DNA of 64,000 bases from Candidatus Gastranaerophilales bacterium (lineage in GTDB: Bacteria > Cyanobacteriota > Vampirovibrionia > Gastranaerophilales > Gastranaerophilaceae): positions 1-64,000 of the forward strand of contig CALVAY010000008.1 of assembly GCA_944325665.1 (NCBI GenBank), read 5' to 3'. Shown here piece after piece: positions 16,628-58,400 of the stretch. The translations under genes were made by a program, and so were the position numbers. The notes beneath the pieces are model-generated. The model had not been told where the DNA came from. It searched no databases and saw only the letters and a list, made by a program, of their open reading frames with translations. The number at the start of each line of letters is the position of its first letter. Position 1 is the first letter of the stretch.

Positions 16628-17206
16628 TTAAAACCAGTCTATTAAAGCTTTATCCTTGCCGAAGTTTAAATTACATACTTCGGCAAGTTTACTGTTGTAT
16701 AAAAATTTCTTGCTCAAATTATAAGCAAGCGGTTCTTGCTTGTAGCCAAGCTCTTTAAACTTAACATCGCTTAGCTGCCCTGTTGAATAATCATAAACTT
16801 GAGAATAATTTAGCCCTTCAAAAAGACAGGACGGAACTTTTATTTTTTCATCCAAAAAATAAGGCAATCCAAAAGTTCTGCATATTATCGGTCTTTTTTC
16901 ATAAATTGCACATCTGTCGTTAACTAAAAACGGACAAATATAAGTCCAGTTCCTATCATTACCTTGCTGCATTTTTTCCTTTTTTAATTGCGAAATTTTA
17001 TCTAAAATCTTTACCCTGAGTTCATAATCAAGTTCACTCAGAGCAGATTTTAAATATAAAAATTCTATTTCACTTATAGGGTAAACTCCCGTCTTGCAAC
17101 AAAGCGAACAGCCCTCTTTGCAGCAAATGTATTCTTTTTGCTGTTCAAAGAAACTTTGAAGTTTTACATTTAAATAACCAAGAAATTTTTCGTAATTATC
17201 AAACAT
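16628..17206 (-). CDS. YkgJ-type cysteine-cluster protein
   Basis: 192 residues. The metal-binding signature is CCKEGCSLCC (about 28-37) with CPFLVNDRCAIYEKRPIICRTFG (about 90-112); these Cys probably bind a metal or Fe-S cluster. Function of the family (UPF0153/YkgJ) is unknown. It lies 2 bases after argF and probably belongs to the arginine transcript. A clear paralogue is at 28644. No catalytic role can be assigned. Confidence 0.8.
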   Translation of the reverse strand: MFDNYEKFLGYLNVKLQSFFEQQKEYICCKEGCSLCCKTGVYPISEIEFLYLKSALSELDYELRVKILDKISQLKKEKMQQGNDRNWTYICPFLVNDRCAIYEKRPIICRTFGLPYFLDEKIKVPSCLFEGLNYSQVYDYSTGQLSDVKFKELGYKQEPLAYNLSKKFLYNSKLAEVCNLNFGKDKALIDWF

Positions 17207-17208
17207 TT

Positions 17209-18135
17209 TTATATAATTGATGCCAATATCGCCTTTTGAGCATGCATTCTGTTTTCTGCCTGCTTAAATATTATATCAGCATTTTTTTCTAAAATCTCAT
17301 GAGTTATTTCTTCTTCTCTGTGCGCAGGTAGGCAATGCAGAACAATATGCTCCGATGCTGCTTTTTGACATAGTGAAGAATTTATCTGATAAGGTTTAAA
17401 TATCTCCCTTCTGGCTTGAGCTTCGCCTTCTTGTCCCATGCTTGCCCAAACATCAGTGTAGATGATGTTGGCATCTTTTACTGCAATATTTGGGTCATGT
17501 ACAACTTCTACTTTTGAACCTGTTTTTTTAGCGGTTTCATTTGCAAAGTTTAAAAAGTTACTCATAGGCTCATACCCTTCAGGACAAGAAATTGTAACGT
17601 CCATACCAACTAAGGCACAACCCGCCAAAAGACTGTTAGCAACATTATTGCCATCGCCAACATAGCAAAGTTTAAGACCCTTAAGCTTTGAAAAATGTTC
17701 TTTTATGGTCAATAAATCCGCCATAATTTGACAAGGGTGGCAATCATCCGTTAAACCGTTTATTGTTGGAATTGTAGCGTATTTTGCAAACTCTTCAACG
17801 TCTTTATGCGCAAAGGTTCTAATCATAACACAATCCGCATAACCCGATAAAACCCTTGCAGTATCAGATATAGTTTCTCTAACGCCCAAATTAATTTCAT
17901 CTTGCTTTAAAGTTAAAGAGCTTCCGCCAAGCTGTCTCATACCAATTTCAAAACTCACCCTTGTTCTTAAGGAAGGTTTTGAAAATATTAAAACAAGATT
18001 TTTATTCTCTAAAATAGGCAAAAAATGTCCGCTTTTGGCATCTTTTTTAATTGCTTCGGCAAAATCAAGCAGATAAAGTATCTCATCAGATGTAAAATCC
18101 ATTAAAGTTATAAAATCTTTTCCTTTTAAATTCAT
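17209..18135 (-). CDS. argF: ornithine carbamoyltransferase
   Basis: Makes citrulline from ornithine and carbamoyl phosphate, 308 residues. Carbamoyl-phosphate loop is SLRTR (usually STRTR), then the HPCQIMADL motif and the ornithine-binding HCLPAH motif near 268. Its start overlaps the argH stop by one base. It is the last arginine gene of the cluster. Confidence 0.96.
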   Translation of the reverse strand: MNLKGKDFITLMDFTSDEILYLLDFAEAIKKDAKSGHFLPILENKNLVLIFSKPSLRTRVSFEIGMRQLGGSSLTLKQDEINLGVRETISDTARVLSGYADCVMIRTFAHKDVEEFAKYATIPTINGLTDDCHPCQIMADLLTIKEHFSKLKGLKLCYVGDGNNVANSLLAGCALVGMDVTISCPEGYEPMSNFLNFANETAKKTGSKVEVVHDPNIAVKDANIIYTDVWASMGQEGEAQARREIFKPYQINSSLCQKAASEHIVLHCLPAHREEEITHEILEKNADIIFKQAENRMHAQKAILASII

Positions 18136-19520
18136 TATCTTTCTCCTAAAAATTTTTCATAAATTTTAATTACTTTTGACATAGATTCACTTGAAGGGCC
18201 GCCCAAAGTTTTTCTTTTCTGAACACAAGCCTCAAGAGATATTTCATCGTAAATATCGTCGCCAAAAAGCTCGCTAAAAGACTTAAACTCATCCAAAGTT
18301 ATATCTTCAATGTTTTTGGAGTTTTGAATGCAGTAAAATACAATCTCACCCGCAATTCTGTGGGTATCTCTAAAGGGAATGCCTTTTTTAACAAGATAAT
18401 CGGCAACATCTGTTGCATTTAAAAAACCGCTCTTAGATGACTTTAGCATATTTTGGGCATTAACCTTAATGGTTGAGAGCATTTTTGTGAAAACTTCAAG
18501 ACACATTTTTACAGTATCAACCGCATCAAACAAGAACTCTTTATCTTCTTGCATATCCTTGTTATAAGCTAAAGGCAAGCCCTTCATCATTGTTAAAATG
18601 CCCATTAAATCACCATAAACTCTTGAACATTTACCGCGAACAAGCTCGGCAATGTCAGGGTTTTTCTTCTGCGGCATAATGCTTGAGCCTGTTGAAAATT
18701 TATCGTCAAGCTCAATATAGTCATACTCCTTTGAACACCAGAGAATAATTTCTTCACTAAATCTGCTCAAATGCATCATTATAGTTGAAATTACACTCAC
18801 AAGCTCAATTGCAAAATCTCTGTCCGAAACAGAGTCCATGGTGTTTAAAGTCGGCTCGTAAAAACCCAAAAGGTCGCTGACATATTTTCTATCCGTATTG
18901 TATGTAGTACCTGCAAGAGCGCAAGCCCCCAAGGGGCAAGTGTTTGTCCTTTCCCGGCAGTCCTTAAGCCTTGATATATCCCTTTTAAACATTTCAAAGT
19001 AAGCACAAATATGATGAGCAAAAGTAACGGGCTGCGCCTTTTGAAGGTGAGTAAAGCCCGGCATAATTGTATTAATATTATCTTTTGCCAACTTTAAAAT
19101 CACCTCTAAAAGGTCATAGAGCAGAGTTTGAATTAAAATATTTTCTTCTTGAGAATACATTTTAAAATCAAGCGCAACTTGGTCATTTCTGCTTCTTGCA
19201 CTGTGGAGCTTTTTTCCCGCCTCGCCGATTAAATCTGTCAAAAGTTTTTCAATATTCATATGAATATCTTCACAAGAAACACTAAAGCTAACCTTGCCTT
19301 GTTCAATATCTTCAAGGATTTTATTTAGCCCGAAAATAATTTTCTCAAGCTCGCAAGAAGTTATAATACCTTGCTTTTCAAGCATTTTAGCATGAGCTAT
19401 TGAGCCTTTTATGTCTTGCTTATAAAGCCTTTTATCAAATCTGATTGAAGAATTAAAATCATCAACCATCTCATCGGTTTGGGCGGAAAATCTTCCGCCC
19501 CATAGCTTATCATTACTCAT
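18135..19520 (-). CDS. argH: argininosuccinate lyase
   Basis: Splits argininosuccinate to arginine and fumarate, 461 residues. The superfamily signature is [12 protein letters not shown] near 279-290, with [11 protein letters not shown] near 105 and the His of THLQKAQP near 153. It overlaps argG by 8 bases. Full length. Confidence 0.97.
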
Positions 19521-20724
19521 TAATTTTATCTCCCAAAAGCATTGCTCTTACCTTTAAAGGCAAGCCAAAAAGATTTATAAAACCTTCTGCATCTTTATGA
19601 TTATACAAATCGCCCGTTGTAAAGCTTGCCAGACTTTCGCTGTAAAGTGAATAAGGTGAAGTTGCACCTGCGTAGATAATATTGCCCTTGTATAGTTTTA
19701 GTTTTACTTTACCCGTAACTGTTTTTTGAGTTTCATCTACAAATGCGCTAAGTGCCTTTCTTAGAGGAGTAAACCACTGACCGTTATACACAAGCTTTGC
19801 AAATTCGTTTGCAATATTTAATTTATATTGGTAAGTATCCTTATCTAAGCATAAATGCTCAAGATACTCATGAGCCTGATACAAAAGAGTTCCGCCGGGG
19901 GTTTCATAAACTCCTCTTGATTTCATACCAACAAGCCTGTTTTCAACAATATCGGCAATACCGATACCGTTTTGCCCTGCAAGCTCGTTTGCGGTTTCAA
20001 GAAGTTCTTTTGCACTTGTTTTTTTGCCGTTAATGGCAATCGGTTCACCTTTTTCAAATTCTATTTCAACATAAGTCGGCTTATCAGGGGCTTTCTCGGG
20101 CGTAGTTGACATTTGAAGAAGTTTGTCGAAATTAGGCTCAAGAGCAGGGTCTTCAAGCTCTAAACCTTCATGGCTTAAGTGCCACAAGTTTTTATCCCTT
20201 GAATATGAATCATCTTTTTTCATAGGAACTTCAATGCCTCTGTCTTCAAGGTATTTGATTTCATCTTCTCTGGATTGAATATCCCAAATTCTCCAAGGAG
20301 CAATGATTTTAAGCTCAGGAGCAAGAGCCTTAATTGCAAGCTCAAATCTTACTTGGTCATTTCCCTTACCTGTTGCACCGTGGCAAATTGCAACAGCGCC
20401 TTCTTTTTTCGCAATATCTACAAGGTATTTGCCGATAACAGGTCTTGCGATTGATGTTCCCAATAAATATTTGCTTTCATATATAGCGCCTGCTTTTAAG
20501 GTGGGCCAAGCGTACTCTTTTAAAAATTCTTCCGTAACATCAAGCAAATAAAACTTGCTTGCACCGGTTTTCAAAGCCTTTTGTTCAAGTCCGTCAGTTT
20601 CTTTACCTTGTCCTACATCAATACAAACTGCAATAATGTCATAGTCATAAGTTTCTTTAAGCCAAGGGATTAAAACCGTTGTATCCAAGCCGCCTGAGTA
20701 AGCTAAAACTACTTTTTCCTTCAT
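19513..20724 (-). CDS. argG: argininosuccinate synthase
   Basis: ATP-dependent joining of citrulline and aspartate, 403 residues. The N-terminal PP-loop is [12 protein letters not shown], followed by [15 protein letters not shown] near 115-130 and [14 protein letters not shown] near 178. Full length, 1 base after argD, with a good Shine-Dalgarno. Confidence 0.97.
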
Positions 20725-20725
20725 A

Positions 20726-21901
20726 TTATTCTCCTTTTATTTCATTAAAAACCTTATCTAAAACTCTAAACCCTTCTTCTGCCGCCTTTTCATCAATGAT
20801 TAAAGGCGGCACAAATCGGATAACATTTGAGCCTGCACTTAAAATCAAGAGCCCTTCTTTAAAAGCAAGGTTTACAACCTCTTTTGGTGAAATATCAAGC
20901 TCTATTCCAAGCATTAAGCCGAGCCCTCTAATTTCCTTTATAAAAGAATATTTTTCTTTTAGCTCGCTAAGCTTTTGAACAAAATAATTATGCATTTTAT
21001 CAACATTTTCAAGCAGCTTTGCATTTAAAATTTCATCTACAACAACATTTGCACAAGCACACGCCAAAAGATTTCCGCCAAAAGTGCTGGCATGATCCCC
21101 TGCTTCAAAAGCGTCCGCAAATTTCTTATTGGAGAGCATTGCTCCCATTGGCACACCCCCGCCAATGGCCTTTGCAAGAGTAACAATATCAGGGTTAACA
21201 TCATATACCTGATGAGCAAAAAGCTTGCCGCATCTGCCCATTCCGCATTGAACTTCATCAAAAATTAAGGCGATATTATTTTTTGTACAAATATCTCTCA
21301 ACTCCTGTAAAAATTCCTTTTTAGCAGGAACTATACCGCCTTCACCTTGAACAGGTTCAAGGAAAATAGCACATACTTCAGGACTAAGGAGTTTTTTAAC
21401 CGAATTTATGTCGTTAAAGTTTGCAAATTCAACCTCGGGCATTAAGGGGGTAAAGTTTTTTTGATATTTATCTTGCCCCGTTAAGCTCAAAGAGCCTGTT
21501 GTTCTGCCGTGAAATGAGTTTTTAAAGGCAATAAACTTTGTGCAATCTGCACCTTTATTTTTCTTTGCGTAAATTTTTGCAAGTTTTAGTGCGGCTTCAT
21601 TTGCTTCAGCCCCGCTATTGCAGAAAAAGGCCTTATCAAAAGAAGAATTTTCGCAAAGTTTTTGAGCCAGCTCAAGTTGAGGTTCACTCCAGTATAAATT
21701 TGAGCAATGCAAAAGTTTTTTAGACTGTGATGAAATTGTATCTTCAATTTTTTTACAACCGTAACCAAGGGAGTTTACGGCAATGCCTGAAGCAAAATCA
21801 ATATATTTTTTTCCGTTAATATCAAACAAATAACACCCTTCACCATGGTCAAAAACCACGTCAAATCTTGAATAAGTGTTCATTACATAATTTTTTTCCA
21901 T
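20726..21901 (-). CDS. argD: acetylornithine aminotransferase
   Basis: Class III PLP aminotransferase, 391 residues. Signatures: [17 protein letters not shown] near 94, [17 protein letters not shown] near 213, and the Schiff-base Lys in [15 protein letters not shown] near 242. It overlaps the argB stop by one base. Confidence 0.95.
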
Positions 21902-22761
21902 TACTTTTCCACCATTGTTCCTATACCGTGATGAGTAAATATTTCAAGTAAAAGAGAATGCTCCAATCTGCCGTCTAAAATATGAACAGTGCCTACTCCG
22001 TTGTCAATAGCGCATTTACAGCTTTGGACTTTTGGAATCATACCGCCTTCAATGATTTTATCTTCAATATATTTATCAATTTCATCAACCTTAAGGGTTG
22101 AAATAACAGAGCTTGGATCAAATTTATCTCTCATAACTCCTTCTATATCGGTCAAGAAAACAAGCTTTTCGGCTTTTAGTGCGCTTGCTAATGCAACTGC
22201 CGCATAATCCGCATTAACGTTATAAATGTTACCTTCAATATCCTTTGAAACAGGTGCTACAACAGGGATATAATTGTTTTCAATTAGGATATTCAAAAGT
22301 TTTGAATTAACATTTTTTACCTCACCAATAAAGCCTAAATCCTTGCCGTTCGGGTAGATTTTTTCAACTTCAAACAAATTTGCATCACATCCGCAAATTC
22401 CGACAGCTTCAACACCGTGAGTTTGAATATCGTGAACAATTTTTTTGTTAACCGTTGCACCCAAAACCATTTCGACAACTTGAGCGGTTTTCTTGTCGGT
22501 TTTTCTTAAACCGTCCACAAACTCAGTCTGCACATTCATTTCTTTAAGAGTTTCGGTTATCTCAACTCCGCCACCGTGCACCACGACAGGCTTTATGCCG
22601 ATAAATTTCATAAGGGCAATGTCTTCTATAATGGTTTTTGAAACAACCTCGTCCTTAAGAGCTTCGCCGCCAAGTTTAATAACGACGGTTTTACCCGAAA
22701 ACTCTTTAATATATGGCAAAGACTCGGTTAAAATTCTTACTTTTTGTACATATTCTTTCAT
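21901..22761 (-). CDS. argB: acetylglutamate kinase
   Basis: Phosphorylates N-acetylglutamate, 286 residues. ATP-binding VVIKLGGEAL near 27 and the substrate segment VVHGGGVEI near 60. The N-terminal helix (KEYVQKVRILTESLPYIKEF) matches the hexameric, arginine-inhibitable and PII-regulated class found in cyanobacteria. That regulatory link is an inference. Confidence 0.96.
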   Translation of the reverse strand: MKEYVQKVRILTESLPYIKEFSGKTVVIKLGGEALKDEVVSKTIIEDIALMKFIGIKPVVVHGGGVEITETLKEMNVQTEFVDGLRKTDKKTAQVVEMVLGATVNKKIVHDIQTHGVEAVGICGCDANLFEVEKIYPNGKDLGFIGEVKNVNSKLLNILIENNYIPVVAPVSKDIEGNIYNVNADYAAVALASALKAEKLVFLTDIEGVMRDKFDPSSVISTLKVDEIDKYIEDKIIEGGMIPKVQSCKCAIDNGVGTVHILDGRLEHSLLLEIFTHHGIGTMVEK

Positions 22762-22771
22762 TTTATGCTCC

Positions 22772-24019
22772 TTATGTTCTATATTCGCCGTTAATTCTTA
22801 CGTACTCGTAACTTAGGTCGCAACCCCAAGCGGTAGCTTGTGCTTCGCCTTCGCTCATATAAATATTTATTGTTATTTCTTTGTTTTCAAGCAATTTATG
22901 AGCCTCTTGCTCGTCAAACTCAAGCGGAGTGCCGTCTTTCATAAGATAAATCGATTGCCCACCGCTTAAAAATTCAATCGAAACACCTTCAGGGTTGAAT
23001 TTAACACCGCTGTAACCAAGAGAGGCTAGTATTCTTCCCCAGTTAGCGTCTTCACCAAAGAAAGCGGTTTTAACCAAGTTTGAGGTTGTAACGGATTTTG
23101 CCAAAATTCTTGCAGACTCTTCATCTTTTGCGCCCATAACCTGAACTTGCAAAAACTTAGTCGCCCCTTCGCCATCCAGTACAATTTGCTTTGCAAGGTG
23201 CTTATTAACCATATCCAAGGCTTTTGCAAAAGTTTTATAATCGTCGTTTTCCTGTTCAATAGGCTTATTTTGAGCCTCACCGTTAGCCAAAACAACTACC
23301 ATATCGTTTGTTGAGGTATCCCCGTCAACAGAAATCATATTATATGTATTTTTTGTACTTTGCGAAAGTGCCTTCTGAAGCATTTCTTTTGAAATTACGG
23401 CGTCAGTTGTAACAAAACCAAGCATTGTACCCATATTAGGATGAATCATGCCCGAACCTTTTGCTATTGCACCGATTTTAACAGTCTTACCGCTTATTTC
23501 AAACTCATAAGCAACACCTTTTACAAAAGTATCCGTTGTCATAATTCCTTCGGCAGCATTCAATGCAGCTTGTTCATTTGAACCAAGCTGGGTAACAATT
23601 TCTTCAATACCGTCTAAAATCTTATCCATTTGAAGTTGAACGCCAATAACACCCGTTGAGGCAACAAGAACGCTTCTTTCGGGAAGATTTAAAACCTCTT
23701 GAGTTTTCTTTGTCATCTCCCAAGCGTCCGTCAGACCTTTTGCGCCCGTACAAGCGTTAGCGTTACCACTGTTAATTATTATTGCATTAATAGGCGTAGC
23801 TTTATCGATAATATCTTTTGTAACCAAAAGCGGTGCGGCTTTTACCGTATTTGTTGTGTAAACGCCTGCACTAATTGCGCTTTTTTTGGTATAAATAAGT
23901 GTCAAATCTTTTCTTCTTCTTTTAACACCCGTTCTTATACCCGCACATTCAAAGCCCTTCGGGGCAATTATCGCCCCTTGGATTTTTTTATACTTTTCTT
24001 TTGCTAAATTCTCAAACAT
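22772..24019 (-). CDS. argJ: ornithine acetyltransferase / N-acetylglutamate synthase
   Basis: Transfers the acetyl group of acetylornithine back to glutamate, 415 residues. The self-cleavage region is AKGSGMIHPNMGTMLGFVTT (about 190-209), with the nucleophilic Thr after Gly in MGTML; the family is made as a precursor that splits into two chains. With argJ present no argE is needed, and argA is not seen. It lies between argC and argB. Confidence 0.96.
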   Translation of the reverse strand: MFENLAKEKYKKIQGAIIAPKGFECAGIRTGVKRRRKDLTLIYTKKSAISAGVYTTNTVKAAPLLVTKDIIDKATPINAIIINSGNANACTGAKGLTDAWEMTKKTQEVLNLPERSVLVASTGVIGVQLQMDKILDGIEEIVTQLGSNEQAALNAAEGIMTTDTFVKGVAYEFEISGKTVKIGAIAKGSGMIHPNMGTMLGFVTTDAVISKEMLQKALSQSTKNTYNMISVDGDTSTNDMVVVLANGEAQNKPIEQENDDYKTFAKALDMVNKHLAKQIVLDGEGATKFLQVQVMGAKDEESARILAKSVTTSNLVKTAFFGEDANWGRILASLGYSGVKFNPEGVSIEFLSGGQSIYLMKDGTPLEFDEQEAHKLLENKEITINIYMSEGEAQATAWGCDLSYEYVRINGEYRT

Positions 24020-24028
24020 TTTTACTCC

Positions 24029-25069
24029 TTATGGAAAAACTGTATTATTTTTAAGACCGCTTGTTTCATCTAAATTAAACATAATGTTCATATTCTGTAC
24101 CGCTTGACCCGCCGCACCTTTTACAAGGTTATCAAGCGCACCAAACGCCAAAATTCGTCCCGTTCGTCTATCTTTAAACACGTTTATATCGCAGTAATTA
24201 GACCCTTTTGTCCACTTGGTTTCAGGGGCTTCATCCCCCTCTAAAACCCTTATAAACGCTTTATTTTGGTAATATTTTTTATAAACTTCTTTTAATTCAT
24301 CCAATGAAACATCTTTTGTCGGTTTAAGATAGGCACAAGCTAAAATACCTCTGTTCATAGGCACAAGATGCGGTTGGAAATTAAGAAGAACATTTACACC
24401 TGAAATATCACTCAAAACCTGCTCAATCTCGGGCGTATGTCTGTGAGTAGCAATTTTATAAGGTTTAATTGTTTCATTGCACTCGCAAAAGTGAACTGAT
24501 AAATCAAGACTTCTTCCTGCACCTGAAACACCTGATTTAGCGTCAATTACAATATCATTAGAATTCACAAGCCCTTCCTTAAGTAAAGGTGCAACGGTCA
24601 AAATCGAAGCGGTAGCATAACATCCGGGGTTTGCGATAAGTTTAGCCGTTTTAATTTTTTCCTCATTCCACTCAGGCAAACCATAAACAGCACCTGCTAA
24701 AACATCTTCACCCTTATGCTCAACTTTATACCAAGCTTCATAGCAGTTTTTATCTTTTAGTCTAAAGTCAGCCCCCAAATCAATTACTTTTGAATTATTC
24801 AAAACTTCTTGAGTAACCTCGTTTGAAGCAATTCCATGGGGCAAGCAAACAAAAATTACATCCGTTTTTTTAGAAATTTCGGGCAAATTTTGCTCTTCAA
24901 GCTCAAGCTCAACTATTCCCTTAAAGTTTTTATAAATGTCCGAAAACTTTTTGCCTACATAGCTTTTTGAGGTCAAGCCAACTATTTCAACATCCTTATG
25001 ATTGGCTAAAATACTTATTAATGTTGCCCCTGAGTATCCTGTTGCTCCAATTACCGCTGCTTTTATCAA
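24029..25069 (-). CDS. argC: N-acetyl-gamma-glutamyl-phosphate reductase
   Basis: 346 residues. Rossmann motif VIGATGYSGATLISIL at the N terminus, catalytic Cys in NPGCYATASI near 148, and HTPEIEQ near 209. The start is TTG, supported by AGGAG six bases upstream. It is the first enzyme gene of the cluster and lies 22 bases after the terminator of an upstream attenuator (25091-25231). Confidence 0.95.
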   Translation of the reverse strand: MIKAAVIGATGYSGATLISILANHKDVEIVGLTSKSYVGKKFSDIYKNFKGIVELELEEQNLPEISKKTDVIFVCLPHGIASNEVTQEVLNNSKVIDLGADFRLKDKNCYEAWYKVEHKGEDVLAGAVYGLPEWNEEKIKTAKLIANPGCYATASILTVAPLLKEGLVNSNDIVIDAKSGVSGAGRSLDLSVHFCECNETIKPYKIATHRHTPEIEQVLSDISGVNVLLNFQPHLVPMNRGILACAYLKPTKDVSLDELKEVYKKYYQNKAFIRVLEGDEAPETKWTKGSNYCDINVFKDRRTGRILAFGALDNLVKGAAGQAVQNMNIMFNLDETSGLKNNTVFP

Positions 25070-25090
25070 TTTTTTCTCCTTTTTTGTATT

Positions 25091-25129
25091 AAAAAACCTC
25101 TCGACGGCTGATTTTCCTTTTTCGAGAGG
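25091..25129 (-). terminator. attenuator terminator before argC
   Basis: On the minus strand CCTCTCGA (25129-25122) pairs with TCGAGAGG (25104-25097) and is followed by six T (25096-25091), directly upstream of argC. A terminator between a promoter and the first biosynthetic gene implies conditional read-through. Confidence 0.85.
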
Positions 25130-25193
25130 CTTAGTAAATTTATTTAGTTAACGCTATCACAAATAAACTTAATAAGACTCACATCTTATTAAG
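25126..25193 (-). promoter_or_regulatory. alternative hairpins of the arg attenuator
   Basis: Pause hairpin: CTTAATAAG (25193-25185) pairs perfectly with CTTATTAAG (25176-25168). Competing antiterminator: CTTATTAAGTTTATTT (25176-25161) pairs with AAATAAATTTACTAAG (25145-25130) with one G-U pair and one mismatch. After a further mismatch GAG (25180-25178) pairs with CTC (25128-25126), inside the left arm of the terminator. The two folds are mutually exclusive. Confidence 0.75.
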
Positions 25194-25231
25194 CGGCGGC
25201 GTATAACAAATTGTTGTGTTTTGTTGTTCAT
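25169..25231 (-). CDS. arginine leader peptide
   Basis: A 20-codon frame, MNNKTQQFVIRRRLIRCESY, with AAAGGA five bases before its ATG. Residues 11-13 are three consecutive Arg codons (CGC CGC CGC), and a fourth Arg codon (AGA) follows at residue 16. The last CGC abuts the first arm of the pause hairpin and the stop codon lies in the second arm, the geometry needed for ribosome-controlled attenuation: a ribosome stalled on Arg codons would free the antiterminator, while one reaching the stop would favour the terminator. Its role is inferred; the layout is read directly. Confidence 0.8.
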   Translation of the reverse strand: MNNKTQQFVIRRRLIRCESY

Positions 25232-25255
25232 GTTTTTCCTTTATTTGTTGAAATT

Positions 25256-25284
25256 ATTACAACATTTTTTTTAAGAGTTGTCAA
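25256..25284 (-). promoter_or_regulatory. arg operon promoter
   Basis: Perfect TTGACA (25279-25284), 17-base spacer, TGTAAT (25256-25261) on the minus strand. Predicted transcription start near 25249, about 18 bases before the leader-peptide ATG. Confidence 0.75.
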
Positions 25285-25386
25285 TAATTAATTGTACAAT
25301 TTACACGCTTAATGTAAAAAAAACTTAATATTGTAGCAATAATATGTCTTTAGGTGATTTAATTAACTTGTAAATAGAGGACAACT

Positions 25387-56526: not shown

Positions 56527-58400
56527 CTTATAGCCAAGCAGTAGAGCAAATTAAGAACAGTCTTGATATTGTCGATGTTGTTTCAAAGTATGTCGTGCTT
56601 AAAAAAGCAGGGCATAATTACAGCGGCTTATGTCCTTTTCACAACGAAAAAACTCCGTCATTTACCGTTACCCCCTCTCGTCAAATTTTTAAATGCTTCG
56701 GCTGCGGCGAAGGCGGCGATGTAATTACTTTTTTGATGAAAATAAACAATCAAAATTTTAAAGAGGTAATTGAAGAACAGGCAGCCATTTTAGGGATAGA
56801 GCTTCCAAAGGCAAGTTCAAATTCAACGAAATACAAACAAGAAAAAGAGCGTCTTTTAGAGGCGATGGACTGTGCAAGAAAATTTTATCATAACAATCTT
56901 CTAAACAATCAAAAGGCTCTTGAATACCTTGAAAAAAGAGGTGTCGGCGAAGTCGCAATAGGAAAATTTTTCTTGGGTCTTGCACCAAACTCAAACTTTG
57001 AACTAAAACAACACTTAAAAGAAAAAGGCTTTACAAATGACGAAATGTATAAAGCCGGTCTTTTATATGAAAAAAACGGCGACTTTTTAGACAGGTTTAA
57101 AAACAGAATAATTATCCCCATTATGGATATAAATTCTTGTACAATCGCCTTTGGTGCAAGAGCTATTATGGACGGACAAAATCCAAAATACCTTAACTCT
57201 CCGGAGTCCTCAATATATAACAAAAGTTCGGTTCTTTTCGGAATGAACTTGGCAAAAGAACACATCAAAGAAGAAGACTCGGTTATAATTATGGAAGGGT
57301 ATTTTGATGTAATTTCAGCCCATGTTGCAGGAGTGCAAAATGCGGTTGCATCTTGCGGAACAGCCCTAACACCTCAGCACATTAAACTTATTGCAAGGTA
57401 TTCCCCCTCAAGAAAAATTTATCTTGCTTTTGACTCCGATTCAGCCGGACAAAAAGCAACAAACCTTGGGGCAGAAGTTATTAAGAATATTTTCTCAAAC
57501 TTGGGAGACATTAAACAATACGACTCAAGCTACAATGATGTTTCGCAGTCCGTTTGCGAAATACACGTTGTTTCTCAAGTGGCAGGAAAAGACCCTGATG
57601 AATTTATAAGAGAATTTGGGGCTCAAGAGTATAAAAATCACATTAAAAACGCTCCTTTGTTCTTGGATTACAGGCTAAATAAGACACTTGAAGGCATAAA
57701 CAGTGAAATAACCCCGCAGGAAAAAAGTGAAATAGTACAACAAATAGCCGATATTTTATCAGAAATTCAAAATCCCGTAATTTTATCCGATTACATTAGA
57801 AACATTTCTTTTAAATTAAATCTGGAAGAAAATATACTGAAAAATCAAATTCAAAAGGCAAAACTAAGTAAAGAAAACATCCAAAACGATTTTAAAGATA
57901 ATGTAATTTTGGCAAAAAGATTCACAAAGCATGCTTCAAAAGACCTAAACACAAGAAGAGTGCTTATGGAGAACAACCTTATAAAACTTGCTTTTGTCGC
58001 AAATACACCCGAGAAAAGAAATTTTTATAAGCATGCCATAAATACCTATGAGCCTAAAGACGAAGTTAATGCTAAGATTATTACAAATATTGACAAAGCT
58101 TTGGGTGAAATTAATAATATTGATGAACTAGCAAAAAAACTTTTTTGCGAGTTTTACAATAATAACGAAATACAACAGAAATTATCAGATGAAATTTTTT
58201 CCTCAACAGAATATGAAAATCTTGATTTCGAAAACTATATACAAGCCGTTAATGAAATATTTGAAAGGCTTAACAACATAGACACAGAACTTAAAAAGCA
58301 CGAGCTCGGACAAAAAATCAAAGACAAAAATCTGAGCGAGGATGAAAAGCTTAAGTTGCTTTTCAAACAATTTGAAACAAACAGAATGGAGACATTTTAA
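56514..58400 (+). CDS. dnaG: DNA primase
   Basis: Synthesises RNA primers at the replication fork, 628 residues. Zinc-binding [11 protein letters not shown]...[12 protein letters not shown] near 40-68; catalytic core with FGARAIMDG and the TOPRIM segment [19 protein letters not shown] near 256 and [11 protein letters not shown] near 305; C-terminal helicase-binding helical region. Overlaps dgt by 13 bases and rpoD by one base (TAATG). Confidence 0.97.

Follow-up and report, generated by a model that had tools for sequence, protein, structure and literature searches.

The arginine biosynthesis operon argCJBDGHF is preceded by what is, with a probability of roughly 0.87, a ribosome-mediated transcription attenuator specific for arginine that takes the place of ArgR in this lineage, with translation of the leader, stalling of the ribosome and the response to arginine being inferred in the absence of expression data. 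The element lies on the minus strand of the window, by which I mean the whole stretch of 64,000 nucleotides that was analysed, and its parts, together with the operon behind it, are as follows.

25279..25284, minus: -35 box TTGACA (sequence; kept in congeneric loci)
25256..25261, minus: -10 box TGTAAT, spacer of 17 bases (sequence; TGTAAT or TCTAAT in congeners)
25237..25242, minus: ribosome-binding site AAAGGA of the leader frame (sequence; AGGA kept in congeners)
25169..25231, minus: leader peptide ORF MNNKTQQFVIRRRLIRCESY, 20 codons, ATG 25231 to TAA 25169 (in 11/11 argC-bearing congeners)
25193..25201, minus: control codons CGC CGC CGC (congeners all CGC-CGC-CGC or CGC-CGA-CGC)
25183..25194, minus: segment 1, 5' arm of the first (pause/protector) hairpin, starting within the last CGC (12 pairs with segment 2)
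25161..25180, minus: segment 2, partner of segment 1 (via 25178-25167) or of segment 3 (sequence, folding, alignment)
25126..25145, minus: segment 3, antiterminator partner (18/20 pairs with segment 2)
25094..25132, minus: intrinsic terminator hairpin (-15.5 kcal/mol; core CCTCTCGA 25129-25122 / TCGAGAGG 25104-25097)
25091..25096, minus: T6 tract of the terminator (sequence)
24029..25069, minus: argC, TTG start, first gene of the operon (TIGR01850, 439 bits)
17209..24019, minus: argJ, argB, argD, argG, argH, argF (NCBIfam equivalogs or subfamilies)
16628..17206, minus: trailing CxxCxxCC (YkgJ-like) gene (PF03692)

Anatomy of the leader before argC

A preliminary description of this locus, made from the sequence alone, had listed a TTGACA-17-TGTAAT promoter with an AAAGGA behind it, a 20-codon leader with three CGC codons and an AGA, a terminator with six T just before argC, and a stop codon in the second arm, and all of these were recovered where they had been placed. 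The promoter is of the sigma-70 type and its position, with the consensus TTGACA-17-T[GC]TAAT, is conserved among relatives; a simple promoter scan left it out of its list because it accepts only A as the second base of the -10 box. The extra Arg codon of the leader, the AGA, is found at 25186-25184 (minus), the leader stop codon falls inside segment 2, and the terminator ends 22 bases upstream of the TTG start of argC. The first hairpin had been given nine pairs from the last CGC onwards; it does start in that codon, and it has 12 pairs (CTTAATAAGA/TCTTATTAAG), i.e. 10 Watson-Crick pairs and one G-U at each end, with 100% of the alignment cells paired within the genus. The antiterminator, said to reach into the terminator arm by a GAG/CTC extension, does so: 25180-25161 pairs with 25145-25126 at 18/20 positions with the extension included, and the 3' end of segment 3, AAGCCTC, doubles as the terminator 5' arm. 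In 10 aligned sequences 95.5% of the cells of this 2:3 pairing were paired, compared to 58% or less in slid controls, and the folding of the leader beat 200/200 dinucleotide shuffles (z -3.7). The features that make a leader-peptide attenuator, namely the frame with its ribosome-binding site, codons for the product, a terminator, an antiterminator and a 1:2 hairpin, are present, with the antiterminator predicted and not probed, and translation of the frame inferred.

The operon behind the leader has the gene order that had been proposed, argC-J-B-D-G-H-F, which was confirmed by NCBIfam and is identical in congeners. The trailing gene is presumably co-transcribed, as inferred from its spacing, and no relative of it was found in the viral contigs searched. 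The start codon of argC is TTG in the window and ATG in relatives.

In the proposed mechanism, a ribosome would translate the 20-codon frame as RNA polymerase proceeds through the leader. With the CGN-reading tRNA-Arg charged, the ribosome would reach the stop codon in segment 2 and cover this segment, upon which segments 3 and 4 would make the terminator and the operon would stay unread. When charged tRNA-Arg is scarce, the ribosome would wait on CGC CGC CGC and thereby cover segment 1, so that 2 would pair with 3, no terminator would form and argCJBDGHF would be transcribed, while in the absence of translation the 1:2 hairpin and then the terminator are predicted to form. The sequence elements are demonstrated, as are their conservation, their association with the arg operon and the lack of ArgR, and on paper the helices exclude one another.

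Folding had been suggested as a check for two competing states. The 18/20-pair antiterminator overlaps the terminator arm, so that the two exclude one another as predicted structures, and equilibrium folding shows no switch: with a ribosome placed on the Arg codons the terminator still wins (0.88 in the window). The same calculation gives no switch for E. coli trpL either, with the terminator at 0.95 there and at 1.00 for thrL. As the terminator dominates at equilibrium, a switch must be kinetic and set by the order of folding, and the textbook attenuator decision is kinetic as well.

Conservation in the genus and spread through Vampirovibrionia

Loss of the leader frame or of its Arg codons in relatives had been named as grounds for refutation, and both are kept in 11/11 congeners and recur in other families. 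Among 15 congeneric genomes, 11 carry argC, and each of these has the element once and in the same place, while it was found in 0/4 of the congeners that lack argC. A covariance model of the leader gave one strong match per argC-bearing congener (11/11; 130-159 bits, E 1e-22 to 1e-28). No second copy was found in the bacterium's own or related genomes, and the weak matches of the model that were inspected (E > 1e-3) are ordinary gene-end terminators; the lone exception among the weaker matches (genome G022, C29:3141, E 1.8e-4) is an argF leader (L132) that was also found independently.

The length of the leader is constant at 20 codons in the 11 congeners; the first ten residues vary and are followed by RRRLIR[C/Q/L]ESY. 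Codon differences between near relatives were 27 synonymous and 56 nonsynonymous in the leader frame, while the two remaining frames gave 12/78 and 7/84; this synonymous bias, being specific to the leader frame, is the pattern that a translated frame would give. Covariation in the three helices had also been proposed as a check and was met in part. Within the genus, three terminator pairs have two-sided changes (e.g. CTCTCGA/TCGAGAG in the window versus CTCCC/GGGAG elsewhere), and two antiterminator pairs have them in the distant family f8 (see below), while the 1:2 and 2:3 helices are almost invariant in the genus and the sequence between them drifts. Such near-invariance is expected because segment 2 has two partners, and with segments 1, 2 and 3 nearly invariant, covariation in the genus speaks neither for nor against the 1:2 and 2:3 helices. 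As a separate observation, argC of genome G011 is 97% identical to that of the window, and its leader and promoter region is far more divergent, terminator stem and loop included (L002/L029 compared to 25070-25300).

The window comes from a gut bacterium of Ca. Gastranaerophilales, which belong to the Vampirovibrionia (Melainabacteria), a non-photosynthetic class of the cyanobacterial phylum. For a survey beyond the genus, the upstream regions of 60 further argC loci of the class were taken, the arg genes were located in each, and the regions were scanned for a short Arg-rich frame followed by a terminator, with the remaining loci read by hand. Neither the class-wide spread that emerged nor the codon bias described further below had been part of the preliminary description. 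In several other families, too, the arg operon begins behind an Arg-codon leader and an intrinsic terminator; these leaders contain 2-5 Arg codons each and are unrelated in sequence. The gene order argFGHCJBD occurs in family f7 and in g48 and g9, two further genera of the bacterium's own family, and here it is argF that follows the leader (examples are MKNISLKIAELRRQGLR, MKTVTSTTQLRRSIL, MKKVANKIQLRRSRSNQVLNRVI and MNNKIIFTTELRRRNLF). In families f4 and f2 it lies before argC (NNRRNRCITRQ..., NRSRCRSIVLQEDC), and likewise in the large genomes of the distant family f8 (SRRRRDFLENSG..., ISRRRPGLF...), apart from one f8 genome with the leader before argF (QNRRRRRSNIARGIVG) and another with the leader before argG (MLPSNSLSLNQNRRRRGFSSNPGTI). 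The leader thus accompanies the head of the operon, whichever gene this may be, and was found in most of the arginine-making relatives examined. In two g9 genomes (G022 and G268; L018, L115) the argC search reported one in-frame TAA within argC.

The device is not found everywhere. No comparable leader was seen upstream of argC in 28 photosynthetic cyanobacteria, nor was anything comparable seen near argC in the more distant argC loci examined. Family f3 (L135-L137, L139, L141, L143, L144) has argC and argG with an Arg leader at neither and no ArgR, and some other argC-bearing genomes of the class similarly lack a leader at argC or argG, and ArgR. There is no leader at argG in families f2-f4, and carA of the genus sits behind pyrF without an Arg leader. 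No leader peptide was obvious at a trpE/pabB-like gene or at the genus's leuA-like genes (five of the loci read), which gives no clear sign of attenuation as a general mode in this genome. An RRRRR frame at 56692 (+) of the window was rejected as it lies inside dnaG in another reading frame.

For 35 leaders, the terminator was computed together with the pairing of the segment behind the Arg codons with the terminator 5' arm and loop, and the terminators of L032, L130, L154 and L158 were set by hand instead of by automatic picking. In nearly all of the 35 an antiterminator of -11 to -29 kcal/mol is predicted, formed before the terminator 3' arm exists, and 29/35 were better than their own shuffles at p <= 0.05; a few, e.g. 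L142 and L153, were no better. In L126 and L129 the antiterminator is a perfect helix of 12-15 pairs, uninterrupted over 15 in L129, whose sequence is unrelated to that of the window, and the layout of antiterminator and terminator is common to the families despite their unrelated sequences. Among 12 aligned f8 leaders, two antiterminator pairs have two-sided changes (10 cells), and the covariation score exceeded 498/500 shuffles and all slid controls, although, with two sequence subtypes in f8, it may rest on few events.

Relation of the leader to ArgR

That ArgR, the textbook regulator elsewhere, is not the regulator in this lineage was supported by the absence of its C-terminal domain (PF02863) from 58/58 genomes, i.e. 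the bacterium's own and 57 relatives; 8/14 control genomes were matched in the same search. Across the class, ArgR was found in 8/382 genomes, all of them in f8. None of these eight has a leader with a terminator at argC, and in most of them argR lies directly before argG. Of the f8 genomes that have argC but no ArgR, 15 out of 16 carry the leader (14 at argC or argF, one at argG), with G151 unresolved. Leader and ArgR are therefore mutually exclusive in f8. The chance probability of this split is 9/735471 on the assumption of independent genomes, an assumption that does not hold. Well-supported branches of the argC tree force at least six changes of the leader, compared to three needed for ArgR, and the tree fits both an ancestral leader with losses and repeated gain. 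With the element read as an arginine attenuator, f8 offers an example from nature of one kind of regulation giving way to another inside a family.

A side observation concerns the f8 genomes with argR directly before argG (L296, L304, L306-L310), where an out-of-frame ATG frame within argR contains Arg runs, e.g. MQVVKIYNRRRRRRIRCMRRLQV, and overlies the Thr/Pro-rich linker of ArgR. In G144 (L297), which has an intact ArgR before argC, the argR copy at argG seems decayed, yet the Arg frame is still open. It is possible that Arg leaders originated by overprinting, though codon composition alone may explain the Arg runs.

The wider proposition is that the attenuator is old and class-wide in Vampirovibrionia, that it follows the head of the arg operon through rearrangements, that it was exchanged for ArgR within one family, and that it reads the charging of the CGN-reading tRNA-Arg and not of the major AGA-reading one. 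As a whole this is put forward tentatively, and the odds are somewhat against it.

Codon choice, other explanations and known systems

Arginine codons in the window are dominated by AGA (20 per thousand codons, compared to 2.4 for CGC, 3.0 for CGU and 1.1 for CGA), and AGA makes up 66-82% of Arg codons in most AT-rich members. The CGN share of Arg codons is 9-21% in the loci of AT-rich members, 45% in g9 and 66% in f8. Unexpectedly, the control codons are nearly all CGN despite AGA being the main Arg codon: the control runs are made of CGC, CGA and CGU in every lineage, joined by AGG in two f2 leaders, and in some congeners an AGA stands two to four codons ahead of the run. The tRNA-Arg genes found in the bacterium's own genome have the anticodons ACG, CCG and CCT, and tRNA-Arg(ACG), once deaminated as usual, reads CGU, CGC and CGA. 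The TCT tRNA-Arg expected for AGA was not among the typed tRNAs of this genome (L232-L264; a few of 37 matches were untyped, and the assembly is ~97% complete). Selective-charging theory predicts that attenuators have as control codons the ones whose isoacceptor is the first to become uncharged, and in E. coli such selective charging has been verified for the Arg family (PMC1183508). CGN sensor codons set against AGA as main codon make a clean test case for this theory.

A leader that senses the slow translation of rare CGN codons in general, through translation stress or scarcity of tRNA-Arg(ICG), instead of arginine supply would account for a control run made essentially of codons that are so sparse in the AT-rich members. 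However, the element is only found before arginine biosynthesis operons, f8 uses the same control codons with CGC as its commonest Arg codon, and selective-charging theory also allows an arginine sensor to use a single isoacceptor (PMC1183508). Rare-codon sensing is thus considered very unlikely.

Alternatively, the nascent chain, with its end RRRLIRxESY, may be an arrest peptide that responds from within the ribosome tunnel to free arginine or ornithine, in which case the Arg residues would matter as part of the chain and not as hungry codons. The fungal arginine attenuator peptide and bacterial SpeFL are arginine/ornithine-sensing arrest peptides, and the last 10 residues of the leader peptide are kept within the genus. 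There are known leaders with Arg whose response is to arginine or to ornithine, e.g. Salmonella orf34 upstream of speF (PMC6386406). Outside the genus, however, the peptide ends are unrelated (RRSIL, LRRQGLR, ELRRRNLF, QEDC, RRRRDFLENSG), while Arg codons and competing helices persist, and within the genus the conserved C-terminal codons coincide with hairpin arms, so that RNA pairing suffices to explain their conservation. An arrest peptide is accordingly considered very unlikely.

An attenuator operated by an RNA-binding protein or, as a riboswitch, by a ligand, with the short frame incidental, could draw on the terminator, on the strongly conserved RNA segments and on the lack of experimental support for translation. 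It leaves the frame-specific synonymous bias, the constant frame length and the Arg codons kept in otherwise unrelated leaders unexplained, and known riboswitches and T-boxes were unmatched: no Rfam family, T-box included, reached its threshold (the best leader score was Phe_leader with 24.3 bits, threshold 55), and for the T-box there was no window match at the gathering threshold and no leader match at a relaxed one. Little credence remains for it. Chance, with a short frame that happens to lie upstream of an ordinary terminator, has in its favour that RRR alone is not rare (4/712 short ATG frames of the window). It is excluded by conservation, where the excess over chance lies: the element is kept in 11/11 congeners at 69-97% argC identity and recurs in other families.

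Textbook leader-peptide attenuation covers Trp, His, Thr, Leu, Ile/Val, Phe and Cys, whereas arginine serves as the classic illustration of a pathway under a DNA-binding repressor. No arginine leader peptide before a bacterial arg operon was found in the literature, with most subscription journals outside the search. The enterobacterial trp, his, thr, leu and pheA attenuators are alike in having a short frame with a run of product codons, alternative 1:2, 2:3 and 3:4 helices, the stop codon in segment 2 and the terminator before the first gene, which upholds the trp/his/leu-type geometry assigned to the element at the outset; energies and spacing in the window are within the range of E. coli trpL and thrL. 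They differ in amino acid, phylum and sequence. ArgR with its ARG boxes, which regulates arginine synthesis genes in many bacteria, likewise ties these genes to arginine supply, but is a DNA-binding repressor and absent from this genome and the relatives searched. The fungal arginine attenuator peptide (the arg-2/CPA1 uORF) is also an upstream peptide that fits arginine synthesis to supply; in contrast, it is a eukaryotic translational control by a conserved arrest peptide and involves no terminator.

Outside Proteobacteria, leader-peptide attenuators have been predicted for trp, ilvB and leuS in Actinobacteria, with cys leaders that lack clear terminators (PMC1262725), and for hisS in Firmicutes, a case before which, as stated for 2010, no leader-peptide system was known beyond Proteobacteria and Actinobacteria (PMC2965389); none of these is for arginine and none is in the cyanobacterial phylum. 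Among systems that involve arginine, the nearest is orf34 of Salmonella, a short frame upstream of speF where ribosome pausing at two consecutive Arg codons at low arginine reportedly alters the downstream RNA structure; unlike the present element, it controls ornithine decarboxylase and is reported to act through Rho and RNase G and not through an intrinsic terminator and antiterminator (PMC6386406). By its anatomy, conservation and context, and with its response to charged tRNA-Arg inferred, the element is new in amino acid and lineage and not in principle, and an arginine attenuator where ArgR is absent adds one amino acid and one phylum to the known list.
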